A stretch of DNA of 64,000 bases from Neoarius graeffei (Eukaryota; Chordata; Actinopteri; Siluriformes; Ariidae): positions 36,538,335 to 36,602,334 of the forward strand of contig NC_083589.1 in the NCBI RefSeq assembly GCF_027579695.1. The letters run 5' to 3'. The translations under genes and the position numbers were made by a program. The notes under the pieces are model-generated. The model was not told the origin of the DNA. It did not search any database and saw nothing but the letters and a program-made list of their open reading frames with translations. Positions 8,401-59,340 of this stretch are shown piece by piece; positions within the stretch are counted from its first letter, which is position 1; the number at the start of each line of letters is the position of its first letter.

Positions 8401-9049
8401 TCAGTATCTGGTGTGACCCCCTTGTGCAGCAATAACTGCAACTAAACGTTTCCGGTAACTGTTGATCAGTCCTGCACACCGGCTTGGAGGAATTTTAGCC
8501 CATTCCTCCGTACAGAACAGCTTCAACTCTGGGATGTTGGTGGGTTTCCTCACATGAACTGCTCGCTTTAGGTCCTTCCACAACATTTCGATTGGATTAA
8601 GGTCAGGACTTTGACTTGGCCATTCCAAAACATTAACTTTATTCTTCTTTAACCATTCTTTGGTAGAACGACTTGTGTGCTTAGGGTCGTTGTCTTGCTT
8701 CATGACCCACCTTCTCTTGAGATTCAGTTCATGGACAGATGTCCTGACATTTTCCTTTAGAACTCGCTGGTATAATTCAGAATTCATTGTTCCATCAATG
8801 ATGGCAAGCCGTCCTGCCCCAGATGCAGCAAAACAGGCCCAAACCATGATACTACCACCAACATGTTTCACAGATGGGATAAGGTTCTTATGCTGGAATG
8901 CAGGGTTTTCCTTTCTCCAAACATAACACTTCTCATTTAAACCAAAAAGTTCTATTTTGTTCTCATGTGGGCACAAAACATTTTTCCAATAGCCTTCTGG
9001 CTTGTCCACATGATCTTTAGCAAACTGCAGACAAGCAGCAATGTTCTTT
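8401..9049 (-). pseudogene. Tc1 transposase catalytic part, broken
   Basis: The minus-strand frame 9009-8401 contains KIELFGLNEKCYVW, MKQDNDPKHTSRS and SPDLNPIEMLW, the Tc1 DD34E signature. The second Asp (QDND) and the Glu (NPIE) are present. The position of the first Asp (WSDETK in the family) reads CPHENK, so the triad is lost. The protein ends in GGHTRY, the normal Tc1 C-terminus. The 5' part of the gene continues beyond the inserted MITE. Confidence 0.88.
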
Positions 9050-9052
9050 TTA

Positions 9053-9753
9053 GGTGGGGTTTACATTAGACCGTATCAGCGGATCATCAGATTAACATTT
9101 TTAAAACGATTAGCGTGCACACAGCAACACCAATACACGATTCGCGTGCACACAGCAACACCAATACACGGATACGCTTGGCTCCGCAGGCATCCTGCGC
9201 TCCAAATCACTCCGCCCTGAACAGCGAGTGCCCTCTGGAGGGTGCGCACTCCGGCCCTGCGCAGCTCACAGAGCGCGCGAGTGGAGTGCACGAGCAGTGA
9301 TTTGGGACTGAGCCGCTGTGTGTGTGATCTCAGTGCATATCACTTACCACTTGCAAGTGGAAGGATGGCAAGCCTAAAGACAATCATAACTACACAATGG
9401 GCAGTATTTGCATCAGTATTTGCAGTATTTTCATACTTTTATACTCTTTAATGAAAGGTGATACAAGGCGGAAGTCCGCGCCGTTTTTCAGCAGTCGCGT
9501 CACATGACCAACGCCAGCGAATCAGGAAGGTGGATGTCACAGTGACGTTGTCCAATGACGACGCCAGCTAGAGCTCAGCACAGCGTATCCGCGTATTCTC
9601 AATGTTTACACAGCACCGGACCAGACACGATCTGGATTGAATACGTGGACCCTGGCGGATTCCCGTTTCCTGGCGTTTCCAGGTGGTTTAATGTAAACGG
9701 ACAGTGCATCCGTGAAGAAAACGAGACAGATACGGTCTAATGTAAACTTGGCC
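9053..9753. mobile_element. PIF/Harbinger-like MITE nested in Tc1
   Basis: Terminal inverted repeats include GTTTACATTAGACCGTATC exactly at both ends, and TTA is duplicated at 9050-9052 and 9754-9756. Removing the 701-bp element plus one TTA restores the Tc1 reading. A 3-bp TTA duplication is typical of PIF/Harbinger. No transposase is encoded. Inside, CAGCAACACCAATACACG repeats in tandem (9121-9170). Confidence 0.85.
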
Positions 9754-10110
9754 TTAGAGAGCAGTGGCTTTCTCCTTGCAACCCTGCCATGCACACCATT
9801 GTTGTTCAGTGTTCTCCTGATGGTGGACTCATGAACATTAGCCAATGTGAGAGAGGCCTTCAGTTGCTTAGAAGTTACCCTGGGGTCCTTTGTGACCTGG
9901 CCGACTATTACACGCCTTGCTCTTTGTTGGTCGACCACTCCTGAGGAGGGTAACAATGGTCTTGAATTTCCTCCATTTGTACAAAATCTGTCTGACTGTG
10001 GATTGGTGGAGTCCAAACTCTCTAGAGATGGTTTTGTAACCTTTTCCAGCCTGATGAGCATCAACAACGCTTTTTCTGAGGTCCTCAGAAATCTCCTTTG
10101 TTCGTGCCAT
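9753..10110 (-). pseudogene. Tc1 transposase N-terminal DNA-binding part
   Basis: The minus strand starts MARTKEISEDLRKSVVDAHQ, a paired-like helix-turn-helix, followed by STVRQILYKWRKFKT and a GRPTK hinge. It then shifts frame into RRVIVGQVTKDPRVTSKQLK. A short deletion and a frameshift separate the two blocks. Confidence 0.85.
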
Positions 10111-10673
10111 GATACACTTCCACAAACATGTGTTGTGAAGCTCAGACTTTGATAGATCCCTGTTCTTTAAATAAAACAGGGTGCCCATTCACACCTGATT
10201 GTCGTCCCATTGATTGAAAACACCTGACTCTAATTTCACCTTCAAATTAACTGCTAATCCTAGAGGTTCACATACTTTTGCCACTCACAGATATGTATGC
10301 GAGGAAACCCACCAAAATCCCAGAGTTGAAGCTGTTCTGTACGGAGGAATGGGCTAAAATTCCTCCAAGCCGGTGTGCAGGACTGATCAACAGTTACCGC
10401 AAACGTTTAGTTGCAGTTATTGCTGCACAAGGGGGTCACACCAGATACTGAAAGCAAAGGTTCACATAATTTTGCCACTCACAGATATGTAATATTGGAT
10501 CATTTTCCTCAATAAATAAATGGCCAAGTATAATATTTTTGTCTCATTTGTTTAACTGGGTTCTCTTTATCTACTTTTAGGACTTGTGTGAAAATCTGAT
10601 GATGTTTTAGGTCATATTTATGCAGAAATATAGAAAATTCTAAAGTGTTCACAAACTTTCAAGCACCACTGTA

Positions 10674-15610: not shown

Positions 15611-15796
15611 CCCCCTTTCTGTCCTAGCTATCATTAATTTTTTCAGCAGTTTGTGCTCCAGTAGCTCTTCTGTTGGATCGGGCCAGACGGGTTTGCCTTC
15701 ATTCCCCATATGCATCAGTGAGACATCAGCATCACTGGTTCACTGGTTATCCTTCCTTGGACCACTTTTGGTAGGAATTAACCACTGCATAACCGT

Positions 15797-16043
15797 GAGT
15801 TGGCCTAGTGGTTAGCGTCTCCGCCTCTCGATTGGGAGATTGTGAGTTCTACTCACGGTCGGGTCATACCAAAGACCATCATAAAAATGGTACCTACTGC
15901 CATCTGGCAAGGCACGCTGCAATACAGATGTGAGTGGGGAGTCAAACTCTTGACCAGCCCCCCGCTGTAACCCTAGCTATATGAAAGGCCGAGGGCTACG
16001 GAGATTGGCGGCGCCCTATGCGCCACATGGTGTGGCAAGAACT
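15797..16043 (+). repeat. tRNA-like SINE family 3
   Basis: Head GAGTTGGCCTAGTGGTTAGC with an A-box, then TTGTGAGTTCTACTC near the B-box position. The body has GGGAGTCAAACTCTTG and TGTAACCCTAGCT and the tail GGAGATTGGCGGCGCCC. Other copies are at 51697-51950 and 57838-58965; the internal unit is single here but expanded in the latter. Confidence 0.75.
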
Positions 16044-16296
16044 TGGATTTGAACCACTTCATACCAGGAACACCCCACAAGATGTGCCATTTTGAAGATG
16101 CTCAGACCCAGTCATCTAGCCATCACAATTTGGCCCTTGTGAGTCGCGCACTCATTTGTTTTTGTGTTCTTGGTCTCAGAGCCGCGCGCACGAAACAGAC
16201 ACAGAAGACAGAATCAACGTTTAACATAATTAACAATGCACTTTTTACGGAGATGTTTTAATATTATTCTTTATTTTTTTATCTAGTTGAATATTT

Positions 16297-32084: not shown

Positions 32085-32560
32085 TCCCAGAACGAGACTC
32101 TGAGTATAGAGACTCAGATCAAGACTAAAACCAGATTACCACCAAGACTAAAACCATATTACTGTACCACACAGTCCAAGACTCAGACCAGAATACCACC
32201 CAGACCAAAACTCAGACCAGATTACCACCCAGACCAAGAATCAGACCAAAATACCACCAAGCTTCAGACCAGATTACCACCCAGACCAAGCCTCAAACCA
32301 GATTGCCACCAAGCCTCAGACTAGATTACCAACCAGCCCAAGACTCAGACCAGATTACTACCCAGACCAAGACTAATACCATATTACCACCCAGATAAAG
32401 ACTCCGACAAGATTACCACTCAGATGATGTCTCAGACCAGTGTGAAACCCACATAGCGATTTAGCTCAGCTTGAGACCCACACCAAGACTTATTTCAGAG
32501 TGAGACCCAGACTGAGACTATATCAGTTGGGATCCAGACCAAAAATTTGACTATTGAGAC
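32085..32560. repeat. Minisatellite, about 27-30 bp unit
   Basis: Imperfect tandem copies of a CAGACCAGATTACCACC / CAGACCAAGACT unit give an 82-codon frame rich in PPRPKL repeats. The frame is a by-product of the repeat. Confidence 0.7.
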
Positions 32561-32952
32561 CCAAACCAAGATGGCGGGAAAACAGTGCACAATGCATTCA
32601 ATGCAGAAATTTTATTTTGCAGTAATAACACGTGCTTCTTTCTGGCATCATGCCAGTTGTTGTTTTATAGGTGCTCTTTCACACAATGTGTTCTATGACA
32701 TGACGCTCCATGTGAAGGATTGGTATAGAAATGGCAAAACTAGGAATTGTTCCAAATTAGCTGCACTGAAGTGTGCTTCCTGTGTGTAGCCATGCCAATA
32801 CTTTGTCATTATGTGGATGTGAGCTTTGCTTTCTCCTGTTGACTCTGTCTGATGAGTCACAGACTGATCCTGTCTCTCACTTTCATCACTCACCAACACC
32901 TCCACAGAGCTTAGTCATGGCAGGGGAATTGGGTCACCTCTTACAGCAGTTC

Positions 32953-35462: not shown

Positions 35463-37080
35463 CAGTGCCTTGCAAAAGTATTCATACCCCTTGAACTTTT
35501 TCACATTTTTCCACCTTACAACCACAAACTTAAAAGTTTTTTATTGAGATTTTATGTGATAGACCAACACAGAGTAGCACATAACTGTGAAGTGAAACGA
35601 AAATGATAAATGGTCTTCAAAATTTTAAGCAAATAAAAATCTGAAAACTGTGGTGTGCATTAGTATTCAGCCCCCTGTACTCTGATACCTCTAAATACAA
35701 TCCAGTGCAATCAATTGCCTTCAGAAGTCATCTAATTAGTTAATAGAGTCCTACTGTGTGTAATTTACTCTCAGCATAAATACACTTGTTCTGTGAAGGC
35801 CTCAGTGGTTAGTTAGAGAACACTGAAGAACAAACAGCATCATGAAGCCCAAATAACTCACCAGACAGGTCAGGGATAAAGTTCTGGAGAAGTTTAAAGC
35901 AGGATTAGGTTATAAAAAAAAATCCCAAGCTCTGAACATCTCAAGAAGCACTGTTCAATCCATCATTCAAAAATGGAAAAAGTATGGCACAACTGCAAAC
36001 CTACCAAGACATGGCCGTCCACCTAAACTGACAGAGCGAGCAAGGAGAGCACTGGTCAGAGAAGCAGCCAAGAGGCCCATGATCACTCTGGAGGAGCTGC
36101 AGAAATCCACAGCTCAGGTGGGAGAATCTGTGCACAGGACAACTAAGTCGTACACTCCACAAATCTGGCCTTTTTGGAAGAGTGGCAAGAAGAAAGCCAT
36201 TGTTGAAAGACAGGCGTAAGAAGTCCCATTTGCAGTTTGCCAGAAGCCATGTAGGGGACACAGCAAACATGTGGAAGAAGCTGCTTTGGTCAGATGAGAC
36301 CAAAGTTGAACTTTTTGGCCTAAATGCAAAGCGCTATGTGTGGCGGAAAACTAACACTGCTCATCACCCTGCACACACCATCCCCACTGTGAAACATGGT
36401 GATGGCAGCATCATGCTATGGGGATGCTTTTCTTCAGCAGGGACAGGGAAGCTGGTCAGAGTTGATGGGAAGATGGATGGAGCTAAATACAGGGCAATCC
36501 TGGAAGAAAACCTGTTGGAGGCTGCAAAAGACTTGAGACTGGGAAGGAGATTCACCTTCCAGCAAGACAATGACCCTAAACATACAGCCAGAGCTACAAT
36601 GGAATGGTTTAGATCAAAGAATATTCATGTGTTAGAATGGCCCAGTCAAAGTCCAGACCTAAATCCCATTGAGCATCTGTGGCAAGACTTGAAAATTGCT
36701 GTTCACAGACGCTCTCCATCCAATCTGGCTGAGCTTGAGCTATTTTGCAAAGAAGAATGGGCAAAAATTTCAGTGTCTAGATGTGCAAAGCTGGTAGAGA
36801 CATACCACAAAAGACTTGCAGCTGTAATTGCAGCAAAAGGTGGCTCGACAAAGTATTGACGCAGGGGGGCTGAATACTAATGCACACCACAGTTTTCAGA
36901 TTTTTATTTGTTTAAAATTTTGAAGACCATTTATCATTTTCGTTTCACTTCACAATTATGTGCTACTCTGTGTTGGTCTATCACATAAAATCTCAATAAA
37001 AAAAAACTTTTAAGTTTGTGGTTGTAAGGTGGAAAAATGTGAAAAAGTTCAAGGGGTGTGAATACTTTTGCAAGGCACTG
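35463..37080 (+). mobile_element. Tc1-like transposon, relatively young
   Basis: 1,618 bp with ends CAGTGCCTTGCAAAAGTATT and its complement, and TA at 35461-35462 and 37081-37082. Inverted AACCACAAACTTAAAAGTTT blocks lie just inside. It encodes an almost complete transposase with all three catalytic residues, but a stop at codon 5 and a frameshift disable it. Confidence 0.95.
35842..36859 (+). pseudogene. Tc1 DD34E transposase, stop and frameshift
   Basis: Starts MKPK then TAA at the fifth codon, where the family usually has Glu. The N-terminal helix-turn-helix (ALNISRSTVQSIIQKW) and a GRPPK hinge follow. A frameshift near 36130-36180 moves the frame to the ORF 36182-36859 (225 codons). In that ORF the triad is D38 (WSDET), D129 (QQDND) and E164 (NPIEHLW), so D129 and E164 are separated by 34 residues. 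It ends GGSTKY, the normal terminus. It is a transposon gene, not a gramd4 exon. Confidence 0.93.
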
Positions 37081-45626: not shown

Positions 45627-45654
45627 ACTTATACGTAGATAAATACTATTAGTT

Positions 45655-46812
45655 TGATAGGCAGACAGACAGACAGTGCTATTAGTTTGATAGATAGATA
45701 AATAGACAGACAGTACTATTAGTTTGACAGACAGATAGACAGACAGACAGTACTCTTAGTTTGACAGACGGTACTATTAGTTTGATAGACAGAAAGACAG
45801 ACAGTACTATTAATTTGACAGACAGACAGACGGAAGGATAGGCAGTACTATTAGTTTGACAGACAGACAGACAGTACTCTTAGTTTGACAGACAGACAGT
45901 ACTCTTAGTTTGACAAACAGACAGACAGACAGTACTCTTAGTTTGACAGACAGACAGTACTCTTAGTTTGACAAACAGACAGACAGACAGTAGTCTTAGT
46001 TAGACAGACAGACAGTACTATCAGTTTGACAGACAGGCAGACAGACAGACAGATCTATTAGTTTCACAGACAGACAGTACTATTAGCTTGACAGACAGAT
46101 GGAAAGTACTATTAGTTTGACAGGCAGGCAGACAGACAGACAGACAGAGACAGTACTATTAGTTTGAAAGACAGACAGAGAGACAGACAGACAGAAAGAT
46201 AGGCAGTACTATTAGTTTGACAGACAGATAGTACTATTAGTTTGACAGACAGACAGACAGACAGATGGAAGGATAGGCAGTACTATTAGTTTGACAGACA
46301 CAGACAATACTATTAGTTTGACAGACAGACAATACTATTAATTTGACAGACAGACAGTACTATTAGTTTGACAGACAGACAGATAGTACTATTAGTTTGA
46401 CAGACAGACAGACAGACAGACAGACTACTATTAGTTTGACAGACAGACAGTACTATTAGTTTGACAGACAGACAGTACTATTAGTTTGACAGACAGACAG
46501 ACAGACAGACAGTACTATTAGTTTGACAGACAGACAGATGGTACTATTAGTTTGGCAGGCAGGCAGACAGACAGACATTACTATTAGTTTGAAAGACAGA
46601 CAGACAGAGACAGACAGACAGATGGAAAGATAGGCAGTACTATTAGTTTGACAGACAGACAGTACTATTAGTTAGACAGACAGTACTCTTAGTTTGACAG
46701 ACAGACAGACAGTACTCTTAGTTAGACAGACAGTACTATTAGTTTGACAGACAGACGGAAAGATAGGCAGTACTATTAGTTTGACAGACGGAAAGATAGT
46801 ACTGTTAGTTTG
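45655..46812. repeat. Complex GACA-rich tandem array, about 1.16 kb
   Basis: A GTACTATTAGTTTGACAGAC core alternates with variable numbers of GACA tetramers. Core variants include GTACTCTTAG. More than 30 cores are visible. Confidence 0.92.
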
Positions 46813-46814
46813 AA

Positions 46815-47797: not shown

Positions 47798-48084
47798 TAT
47801 CAGCGTAGTGCGCACTACATTACTGTAGCATGCTCCCTGTATATCAGCGTAGTGCGCACTACATTACTGTAGCATGCTCCCTGTATATCAGCGTAGTGCG
47901 CACTACATTACTGTAGCATGCTCCCTGTATATCAGCGTAGTGCGCACTACATTACTGTAGCATGCTCCCTGTATATCAGCGTAGTGCGCACTACATTACT
48001 GTAGCATGCTCCCTGTATATCAGCGTAGTGCGCACTACATTACTGTAGCATGCTCCCTGTATATCAGCGTAGTGCGCACTATAT
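47798..48084. repeat. 44-bp minisatellite, 6.5 copies, with internal palindrome
   Basis: Copies start at 47798, 47842, 47886, 47930, 47974, 48018 and 48062 (partial), nearly identical. Each holds the perfect 12-bp palindrome TAGTGCGCACTA and a GCATGC hexamer. Confidence 0.97.
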
Positions 48085-48170
48085 TACACACACACAGAGA
48101 AACACACACTCGGTCACCTTTTTTGTCTACACCTCAGCCTACTATGGGATTCCCCTGCTTTGTACCATCA

Positions 48171-51211: not shown

Positions 51212-51696
51212 TCACTGATTCTTTAGTTCTGAGGAAGTTGGGAGCTTGGTCTGCTTGAAGGAATCTTATACATGTACATATATCATTTATAAGTAATAAA
51301 ACCCAATAGAGTGTGATGTTACATGAAAATAATCAATAATGGGGTGATGTGATTCACATCATTCAGTCATGGCCGGTCCCAAGCCCAGCTGAGAAAGGAG
51401 GAGGGTTGGGTATAGGGTTAGCAACCTGATCCTGTAAAAAAATCTACCTGCTACAGAAACGTCAACAAGAGCTCAAGAGACTTTAGTCCTGAAAGAGTAA
51501 GTAAGTAAGTGATTCAGACCAGTGTAAAGTGGAGAAACTGATACCACCCCAAAGCTGACTATGTAAGGGATAATGTACAGCGAGCTGGTCATTATTGTGA
51601 AATAAACTCCAACAATGTGATGCAGGTCTTGAATCACCCTGAAGTTATTTATTTTGCAATAATGAAATCAAATCATTCTTCAATCAAATATCAAAG
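51212..51696. other. Intronic, no feature recognised
   Basis: Nothing supported beyond a short (TAAG)n at 51498-51510. Confidence 0.45.
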
Positions 51697-51950
51697 TCCT
51701 TCCCACGCCATGTGGCGCAGATCTCCGTTTCCATAGCCCTCTGCCTCTCGCCTATTACATAGTTAGGGTTACAGCGGGGGGCTAGCCCTCTGGTAACCGC
51801 AAGAGTTTGACTCCCCACTCGCATCAGTATTGCAGCGTGCCTCGCCAGACGGTACCATTTTTATGATGGTCTTTGGTATGACCCGACCGCGAGTAGAACT
51901 TGCGATCTCCCGATCGAGAGGTGGACACGCTAACCACTAGGCCAACTCGT
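51697..51950 (-). repeat. tRNA-like SINE family 3
   Basis: Inverted relative to 15797-16043. Holds a single copy of the CTCTGGTAACCGCAAGAGTT unit that is amplified at 57948-58886. Head GAGTTGGCCTAGTGGTTAGC on the minus strand. Confidence 0.78.
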
Positions 51951-57339: not shown

Positions 57340-57810
57340 CGTCAGGGTCTTCTAGGTCTTCAGAGAAGGCCCAGACATATCAGCATTTCAAATGTTTTAT
57401 ATTTAATTTCTTTCATTCAATTTCTTTCAGATTTGCATCAGAAATGAAAGGGTTACTGTCCTTAAAACAGTAAAATCGAGTTATCCAATGAGATTTTTTT
57501 GTTTGTTGTCTCTAGGCTGAGAAGAGTTTTGAGCTGCTCACTCACTGGTTAGGACTTCATTGCCGGGACAGAAGGCCATGGCAGTGTATATTTATGTAGG
57601 AAGTGACAGATGAATTAACCAGTCAGATTTTGATTTATAGTTGGAGGGACCAAAAATTTAATCGCCCTCGGCCTTCTCGAAGGCCAACGTGAGCTTAACC
57701 ACAAGTCGGTGCCGTTAGCACACCAATGAAATAACCTTCCAGCCGGTGTAGCATTCATCAGTGGTGTTAGCAAATGTTAATAAAGTGGTCAAGCCAGTGC
57801 TATCAAGAAA
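57340..57810 (-). repeat. Dispersed coding fossil, copy 2
   Basis: Homologous to 23545-24065. The minus strand again shows LDSTGLTTL...FANTTDE.YTGWKV and FEKAEGD, here with internal stops. Confidence 0.6.
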
Positions 57811-57837
57811 TGTCTAGGTCCCTATATACATGTAAGA

Positions 57838-58965
57838 CCACAGATTGGCCTAGTGGTTAGCGTTTCCGCCTCTCAACTGGGTCATACCATTATAAAAATG
57901 TTACCTCCTGCCATCTAGTGAGGCATGCCATAATACAGATGTGAGTAGGGAGTCAAACTCTTGCAGTTACCAGAGGACTAACCCCCACTGTAACCCTAGC
58001 TGGGAGTCAAACTCTCGCGGTTACCAGAGGACTAGTCCCCCACTGTAACCCTAGCTGGGAGTCAAACTCTTGCGGTTACCAGAGGACTAGCCCCCCACTG
58101 TAACCCTAGTTGGGAGTCAAACTCTCGCGGTTACCAGAGGACTAGCCCCCCAACTGTAACCCTAGCTGGGAGTCAAACTCTCACGGTTACCAGAGGACTA
58201 GCCCCCCAGCTGTAACCCTAGCTGGGAGTCAAACTCTCACGGTTACCAGAGGACTAGTCCCCCAACTGTAACCCTAGCTGGGAGTCAAACTCTCACGGTT
58301 ACCAGAGGACTAGCCCCCCAGCTGTAACCCTAGCTGGGAGTCAAACTCTCACGGTTACCAGAGGACTAGTCCCCCAACTGTAACCCTAGCTGGGAGTCAA
58401 ACTCTCACGGTTACCAGAGGACTAGCCCCCCAGCTGTAACCCTAGTTGGGAGTCAAACTCTCGCGGTTACCAGAGGACTAGCCCCCCAACTGTAACCCTA
58501 GCTGGGAGTCAAACTCTCACGGTTACCAGAGGACTAGCCCCCCAGCTGTAACCCTAGCTGGGAGTCAAACTCTCACGGTTACCAGAGGACTAGTCCCCCA
58601 ACTGTAACCCTAGCTGGAAATCAAACTCTCACGGTTACCAGAGGATTAGCCCCCCCCCCCCCCCCCCCCCTGTAACCCTAGCTGGGAGTCAAACTCACTG
58701 TTACCAGAGGACTAGCCCCCCCACTGTAACCCTAGCTGGGAGTCAAACTCTCACGGTTACCAGAGGACTAGCCCCCCACTGTAACCCTAGCTGGGAGTCA
58801 AACTCTCACGGTTACCAGAGGACTAGCCCCCCACTGTAACCCTAGCTGGGAGTCAAACTCTCGCCGTTACCACTGTAACCCTAGCTGTGTAACAAGCGAG
58901 AGGCCGAGGGTGATAGAAATGGAGATTGGTGCTGCCCAATGCGCCTTCAGGACCTGGTTAGTACT
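57838..58965 (+). repeat. tRNA-like SINE family 3 with expanded interior
   Basis: Head GATTGGCCTAGTGGTTAGCG at the left, the terminal GGAGATTGGTGCTGCCC at the right. The part between is normally about 60 bases but here is a 17-copy tandem array (57948-58886). Confidence 0.88.
57948..58886. repeat. 55-56 bp minisatellite derived from a SINE interior, 17 copies
   Basis: The unit starts GGGAGTCAAACTCTC and ends TGTAACCCTAGCT. Starts: 57948, 58002, 58057, 58112, then every 56 bp to 58616, then 58684, 58738, 58793 and 58848. Central copies alternate CCAGCTG and CCAACTG, giving a 112-bp dimer. One copy has a run of about 22 C at 58650. Confidence 0.97.
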
Positions 58966-59340
58966 TGGACAGTAGACTGCCTGGGAAGACCAGGTGCTGG
59001 CATTGCAGGGACTTTGATATAAATGTAAGCAAATTTGCGATATTGACCATGTTAACTGCTTTGTACAAAAGGTCAGATTTTCCTCATGCCTAATCTCTTC
59101 TATTGAATGCCTAATCTCTTCTATTGATTATTCAGATGACACTCTGACAGAGTTGATCTAAAATGGATCATAAGGTTGGAGTCCACACCAGCTCGAGTGC
59201 ACACTGTCATTAAAGTAAAAAGAGGACGTCCCAAATACGAAGAAACTCTCTTTTAATTCATGTAAATATTTCACAGATTCTACTGTTCACTCCAGTTGTT
59301 GTCAGTAATATCATTTGTATTGAAAATTTATTGTAGTAAA
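58966..59340. other. No feature recognised
   Basis: Contains only a short direct repeat GCCTAATCTCTTCTATTGA at about 59090-59125. Confidence 0.45.

Follow-up and report, generated by a model that had tools for sequence, protein, structure and literature searches.

The window, the whole 64-kb stretch of fish DNA analysed here, carries Tc1-like transposase pieces (DDE_3, HTH_Tnp_Tc3_2) at 8401-10166 (-) and 36083-36859 (+); a domain scan of 9 of its 55 listed open reading frames returned three Tc1-like transposase domains and nothing for the remaining six. Tandem Repeats Finder (TRF) reports a degenerate CAGACCA-type array at 32115-32571, a degenerate GACA-rich minisatellite with TACTATTAGTTT at 45644-46813, and a minisatellite at 47798-48087 with 6.6 copies of a 44-bp unit, 99% matches and the palindromic TAGTGCGCACTA within the unit. 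The top score among the 56 TRF rows of the window, 1490, goes to an array called at 57948-58872 with period 56, 16.4 copies and 91% matches, which lies within one SINE copy and is the subject of this report.

By its unit starts and unit table, this minisatellite occupies 57949-58887 (0.94 kb) and consists of 17 head-to-tail units: 16 of 54-68 bp (15 of 54-56 bp and one of 68 bp) and a last one of 39 bp (Table 1). An earlier note on this DNA had counted 17 copies, and both the 17 unit starts and the TRF call agree; its unit of about 56 bp holds for units 4-12, but not for units 1-3 and 14-16 (54-55 bp) or for unit 13 (68 bp), whose C run, given as 22 bases, measures 21. The note also described two alternating variants in the central copies. 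AA and AG before CTG do alternate in 9 of 9 of units 4-12, an order that chance would give once in 126, whereas the alternation of AGTCC (units 2, 6, 8 and 12) with AGCCC is partial, broken at units 4 and 10. Rfam matches of pieces of the array to microRNA and SRP families reach only E 0.36-0.9, far under the gathering scores, and were dismissed as chance.

The SINE copy that carries the array spans 57837 to 59016, between target-site duplications; the earlier end at 58965 cuts off its 3' part. BLAST of the head aligns 57845-57881 and 57886-58002 with the comparison locus L007, and 57845-58001 with L008. At the tail, other copies match up to 59003-59017, with L006 reaching 59017. A target-site match of at least 12/13 within ±10 positions was seen in 77 of 100,000 random pairs drawn from this window. 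Because both ends match other SINE copies and the flanks carry a target-site duplication, head, array and tail are one insertion, and the head and tail of a single SINE on either side of the array uphold the claim that amplification of a SINE interior took place here.

Against the Rfam 5S model the 5S-rRNA-like module in the 3' part reaches 28.4 bits (E 0.0023), where the gathering score is 38. Two of seven other loci match that model at E <= 0.1 (L006, 29.0 bits; L007, 27.9 bits), and L004 and L005 also bear the 5S-like motif by motif search, though without an Rfam match at this threshold. Tails in this SINE family are of two kinds: at 15 of 29 loci, judged by motif, the module lies close to the 3' end, and the second kind lacks it. 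To our knowledge, a 5S-like piece more usually sits at the promoter end than at the 3' end. The head may be tRNA-like, a likeness that carries no score: a tRNA search of 57700-59200 came back empty up to E 1, and one of L002-L008 up to E 0.1. By reading, the array-bearing copy lacks about 27 bp present in the copy at 15797, a gap that presumably falls where the second pol III box is expected. Several of L003, L004, L005, L008 and the window copy (57872-57890) lack about 22-27 bp of head between GGG repeats, at the presumed place of the second pol III box and with slightly different limits, which on reading may reflect recurrent deletion or a subfamily.

Table 1. Features of the array-bearing SINE copy and of copies used for comparison (positions in the window unless a locus is named)
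Feature	Position	Strand	Remarks
5' target-site duplication ATATACATGTAAG	57824..57836	+	identical to 59017-59029 at 12/13
SINE head and middle, single copy	57837..57948	+	BLAST and alignment of copies
Array units 1-3, left outer	57949..58112	+	54, 55, 55 bp
Array units 4-12, homogenised core	58113..58616	+	56 bp each
Unit 9, recombinant junction unit	58393..58448	+	left part resembles units 5/7; right end (TAGTTG) resembles unit 3
Unit 13	58617..58684	+	68 bp; 21-C run at 58650-58670
Units 14-16, right outer	58685..58848	+	54, 55, 55 bp; unit 15 identical to unit 16
Unit 17, shortened	58849..58887	+	39 bp; lacks 16 bp between two CCA triplets (by reading)
SINE 3' part, 5S-rRNA-like module and ACTTTG end	58888..59016	+	module 58928-59005
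3' target-site duplication ATATAAATGTAAG	59017..59029	+	partner of 57824-57836
5S-like modules in the family	window 58928-59005; L006 1658-1737; L007 1653-1733
Comparison SINE copy (15797 in the earlier note)	15790..16050	+	one unit with 13-bp deletion; short tail without 5S module
Comparison SINE copy (51697 in the earlier note)	51684..51949	-	one unit; short tail

Distribution of the array and of its SINE

The copies at 15797 and 51697 had been described as carrying one unit each, and alignment bears this out, the unit at 15797 having a deletion. Unlike the array-bearing copy, both have a shorter tail without the 5S-like module, as judged by motif and reading rather than by Rfam score. Among 29 loci examined, 28 hold single-unit copies and the exception, L002, has three units; these loci are 27 of the 39 other scored places plus the two window copies, and are best matches rather than a random sample (40 of 6,826 candidate places were scored, 39 of them other than this one). 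Genome-wide, the single-unit core matches 5,923 places and its controls none, a lower bound of about one per 400 kb in which some 13 matches are expected, from the unit table, in the array itself. At L006 two separate SINE copies adjoin, one unit each; the second seems to have integrated at the first one's tail. The window holds three copies (15793, 51949, 57837) against none in 19 random 10-kb stretches (L045-L063); local clustering is possible, in a sample too small for a rate.

A 25-base sequence across the unit-unit junction, searched with up to three mismatches through 2.34 Gb in 38 contigs, gave 16 matches, all 16 in this array, with no reverse-strand and no control matches. Two exact gapped patterns were set to match where another unit comes within 30-60 or 15-45 bases; being exact, they pass over diverged copies, and such genome-wide counts of repeat matches are lower bounds. 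The 30-60-base pattern gave 20 matches, of which 15 fall in this array, two in L002 (C3:87.56 Mb) and three in a repeat on C1; its reversed control gave seven, so the background is not zero, and the SINE matches were recognised by their letters and by the junction and second gapped searches. With the 15-45-base pattern 14 of 15 matches lie in this array and one in L002, controls giving none. This array and L002 are the only SINE loci with adjacent units in both gapped searches. The repeat at C1:118242821-118243356 is a tandem array of about 50-bp units, unlike this SINE by reading, that has the word GTTACCAGAG.

Since all 16 junction matches lie here, against 5,923 matches of the single core, the array, found at one locus, is private to it; it is neither a satellite nor the mark of an array-bearing subfamily. 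The earlier note had proposed that an array lying at unrelated loci and lacking SINE ends would mark it as a pre-existing satellite, and the genome-wide junction search brought up no such locus. A satellite would form long arrays or occupy many loci, and what exists is one locus of 0.94 kb. Its head-to-tail units fall within the range of about 10-100 bp, are homologous to part of a dispersed SINE and are embedded in one copy of it, as in a SINE-derived minisatellite.

L002 (C3:87563891-87564123, reverse strand) belongs to the same SINE family and has a three-unit internal array with 59-bp spacing, its units lying at positions 246, 305 and 364 of the reversed stretch. Its units end in GAGGG and those of the window array in TAGCTG; its tail lacks the 5S motif, and it is framed by ACCACGTGGCTAGA and ACCACATGGCTAGA, a target-site duplication matching at 13/14. 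As unit limits (59 vs 55-56 bp), tail type and junctions all differ, the L002 array is, on its sequence, an independent event in the same SINE core. That core (GGTTACC...GTAACCCTAG) might be a recurrent minisatellite seed, overlapping 55-59-bp pieces of it having been duplicated independently in two copies with near-blunt joins, a generalisation that we regard as tentative and rather doubtful. If true, a recurrent seed would turn this SINE family into a naturally occurring test system for minisatellite initiation without homology.

Start, growth and age of the array

To the left of the unit, copies with a single unit have ...GAGTAGGGAGTC... or ...GAGTGGGGAGTC..., and to its right ...CCCTAGCTATGTAA... 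or ...CCCTAGCTGT.... Read against them, the array junction CCCTAGCTG/GGAGTC (CTAGCTG/GGAGTC) joins ends that share 1 bp, and the ends joined in L002 have 0 bp in common. Direct repeats of 5-10 bp around the founding unit are absent when judged against present single-unit copies, and their later loss is conceivable. A single SINE insertion at 57837-59016 would have been followed by tandem duplication of an interior stretch of about 55 bp that extends from GGAGTC to CCCTAGCTG, the founding join forming with little or no homology (1 bp), as from replication template switching or end joining. We infer both that the duplication came after the insertion and which enzymatic routes could have produced it. 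Stems are possible in the single-unit segment (GGTTAC/GTAACC and CTCTCGC/GCGAGAG). Two single-unit copies give z of -0.90 and -1.59 when their DNA folding is compared with shuffles, an array unit gives -0.06, and the two strands of a dimer give -1.11 and -1.64; a hairpin as the cause of the duplication is unsupported, as folding is not clearly better than in shuffles.

With two units present, misalignment during unequal sister exchange, gene conversion or replication slippage could have added more. The steps from one unit to about ten presumably took place without leaving a readable trace. The core (units 4-12) contains exact self-matches of 187 bp at offset 112 and of 184 bp at offset 336, and because of these matches block duplications are invoked. 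The 336-bp periodicity shows a block event larger than a dimer. When one dimer is removed by script, the same 184 bp match at offset 224 instead of 336, and the simplest such event would be a four-unit, 224-bp duplication that preceded the dimer event. The shortest history found for units 4-12 runs in that order, which would place a single 112-bp duplication, of units 5-6 in the left copy, after the four-unit one. Unit 9 fits what an unequal-exchange junction would look like, its start resembling units 5/7 and its end unit 3. The proposal that an already diverged dimer had been amplified asks for more than the array needs: one 112-bp duplication suffices, and the remaining central pattern fits the four-unit duplication. 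Whole-unit periodicity tests are weak. Shuffling of unit order, uncorrected for how many lags were tried, gives P 0.09 at lag 2, 0.12 at lag 4 and 0.007 at lag 6 for units 4-12; for units 2-16 the lowest P is 0.043 (lag 4), with 0.054 at lag 6, and for units 1-16 it is 0.063 (lag 4). Duplication of a four-unit block and then of the dimer in the centre would leave units 4-12 homogeneous and let the edge units keep their old differences, and the C tract of unit 13 would have grown to 21.

Mean pairwise identity is 97.0% among core units 4-12 and 93.0% among outer units 1-3 and 14-16, units 13 and 17 being left out. The same SINE region is 90.5% identical among 13 other copies (of 26 tried), a value that leans high, as the pattern demands exact end words. 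The array-bearing copy itself is 78.1% identical to others in its head (12 of 26 copies aligned) and 79.1% in its tail (16 of 26). Since the outer units are almost as far apart as the other copies, the array has probably existed for long, its start perhaps approaching the age at which SINE copies diverged, with a younger core. These ages are rough, because several unit variants (TCGCG, TCACG, TTGCG) look as CpG decay would leave them. To call the array a snapshot of the birth of a satellite is too strong: it is a minisatellite at one locus, its outer units are about 7% apart, and it gives no sign of becoming a satellite. No function is indicated, and neutral turnover is enough.

An in-place founding duplication followed by block growth inside one SINE copy is the best explanation of the array, and we hold it to be highly probable. 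Could the first duplication have happened during retroposition instead, by a template jump of reverse transcriptase or from a two-unit source RNA, with only the later growth in place? Reverse-transcriptase jumps can leave near-blunt junctions, such as the one seen here, and outer units at 93.0% beside other copies at 90.5% mean that array and insertion may be of similar age. However, the junction search, at up to three mismatches in 2.34 Gb, turned up no candidate source copy, and L002 has an independent array in another register, so that this route seems unlikely. Retroposition of a whole subfamily already bearing the array would account for a second copy with one, but L002 differs from the window array in its unit limits (59 vs 55-56 bp), its junctions and a tail without the 5S motif, and exact words reveal no third SINE locus; such spreading is scarcely credible.

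An error of assembly in unit number or in the C run deserves some thought, given that arrays and 21-base homopolymers are error-prone and that the reading rests on a single assembly; yet distinct unit variants anchor the order and the array, at 0.94 kb, is short compared with long reads, if such were used, which makes an artefact very improbable. Lowest of all in our estimate, with next to no probability, stands a pre-existing satellite or minisatellite that resembles the SINE by chance or served as its landing site. Head and tail of the SINE enclose the array in their proper order inside a single target-site duplication, single-unit copies contain the unit as an internal segment, the unit core matches 5,923 places, and the junction, at up to three mismatches in 25 bases, was found nowhere else, which refutes this origin at that threshold.

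Relation to known SINE-derived repeats

The array is an added example of a kind already known, the SINE-derived minisatellite. The portions of PMC6947457 and PMC9659126 consulted list minisatellites from mouse B1 (a VNTR family) and human Alu SINEs, which share with it the expansion of an internal SINE segment into a tandem array. The B1 minisatellite is listed there as (GGCAGA)n, compared with a 55-56-bp unit here. The present case differs from the mammalian ones in its fish host, in a SINE with a 5S-like 3' module, in its traces of block duplication and in its single locus. A literature search through titles and abstract openings brought up nothing recognised as this SINE or this array.

A human survey, as far as the consulted part of PMC3389668 goes, counted 7,276 arrays derived from transposable elements (TEs), of which 6,817 have no flanking direct repeats or incomplete terminal unit, and most of these have two units. 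They too are local duplications of TE pieces; here, however, there are 17 units with a shortened last one, and TRF matches stand at 91% where the survey demanded 95% inter-unit identity. Tandem repeats of TE origin are common; postulated mechanisms account for 6% of the human cases according to the same text, and the origin of the first duplication is mostly unexplained. The Haber-Louis model, as outlined in the consulted part of PMC6947457, likewise begins with a short tandem that later grows by unequal exchange or slippage, but it uses repeats of 5-10 bp around the founding unit, where the window array has 1 bp and L002 0 bp. Many sister copies show what the sequence was like before duplication, and the two independent junctions can therefore be resolved to single bases, with 0-1 bp of homology. 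The array makes a clean example for teaching and adds a modest data point, with no new principle. Xenopus Satellite 1 and salamander Hy/Pol III, in what was seen of PMC6947457 and PMC9659126, also come from SINE-like sources, but these are named satellites, compared with a 0.94-kb array at one place.
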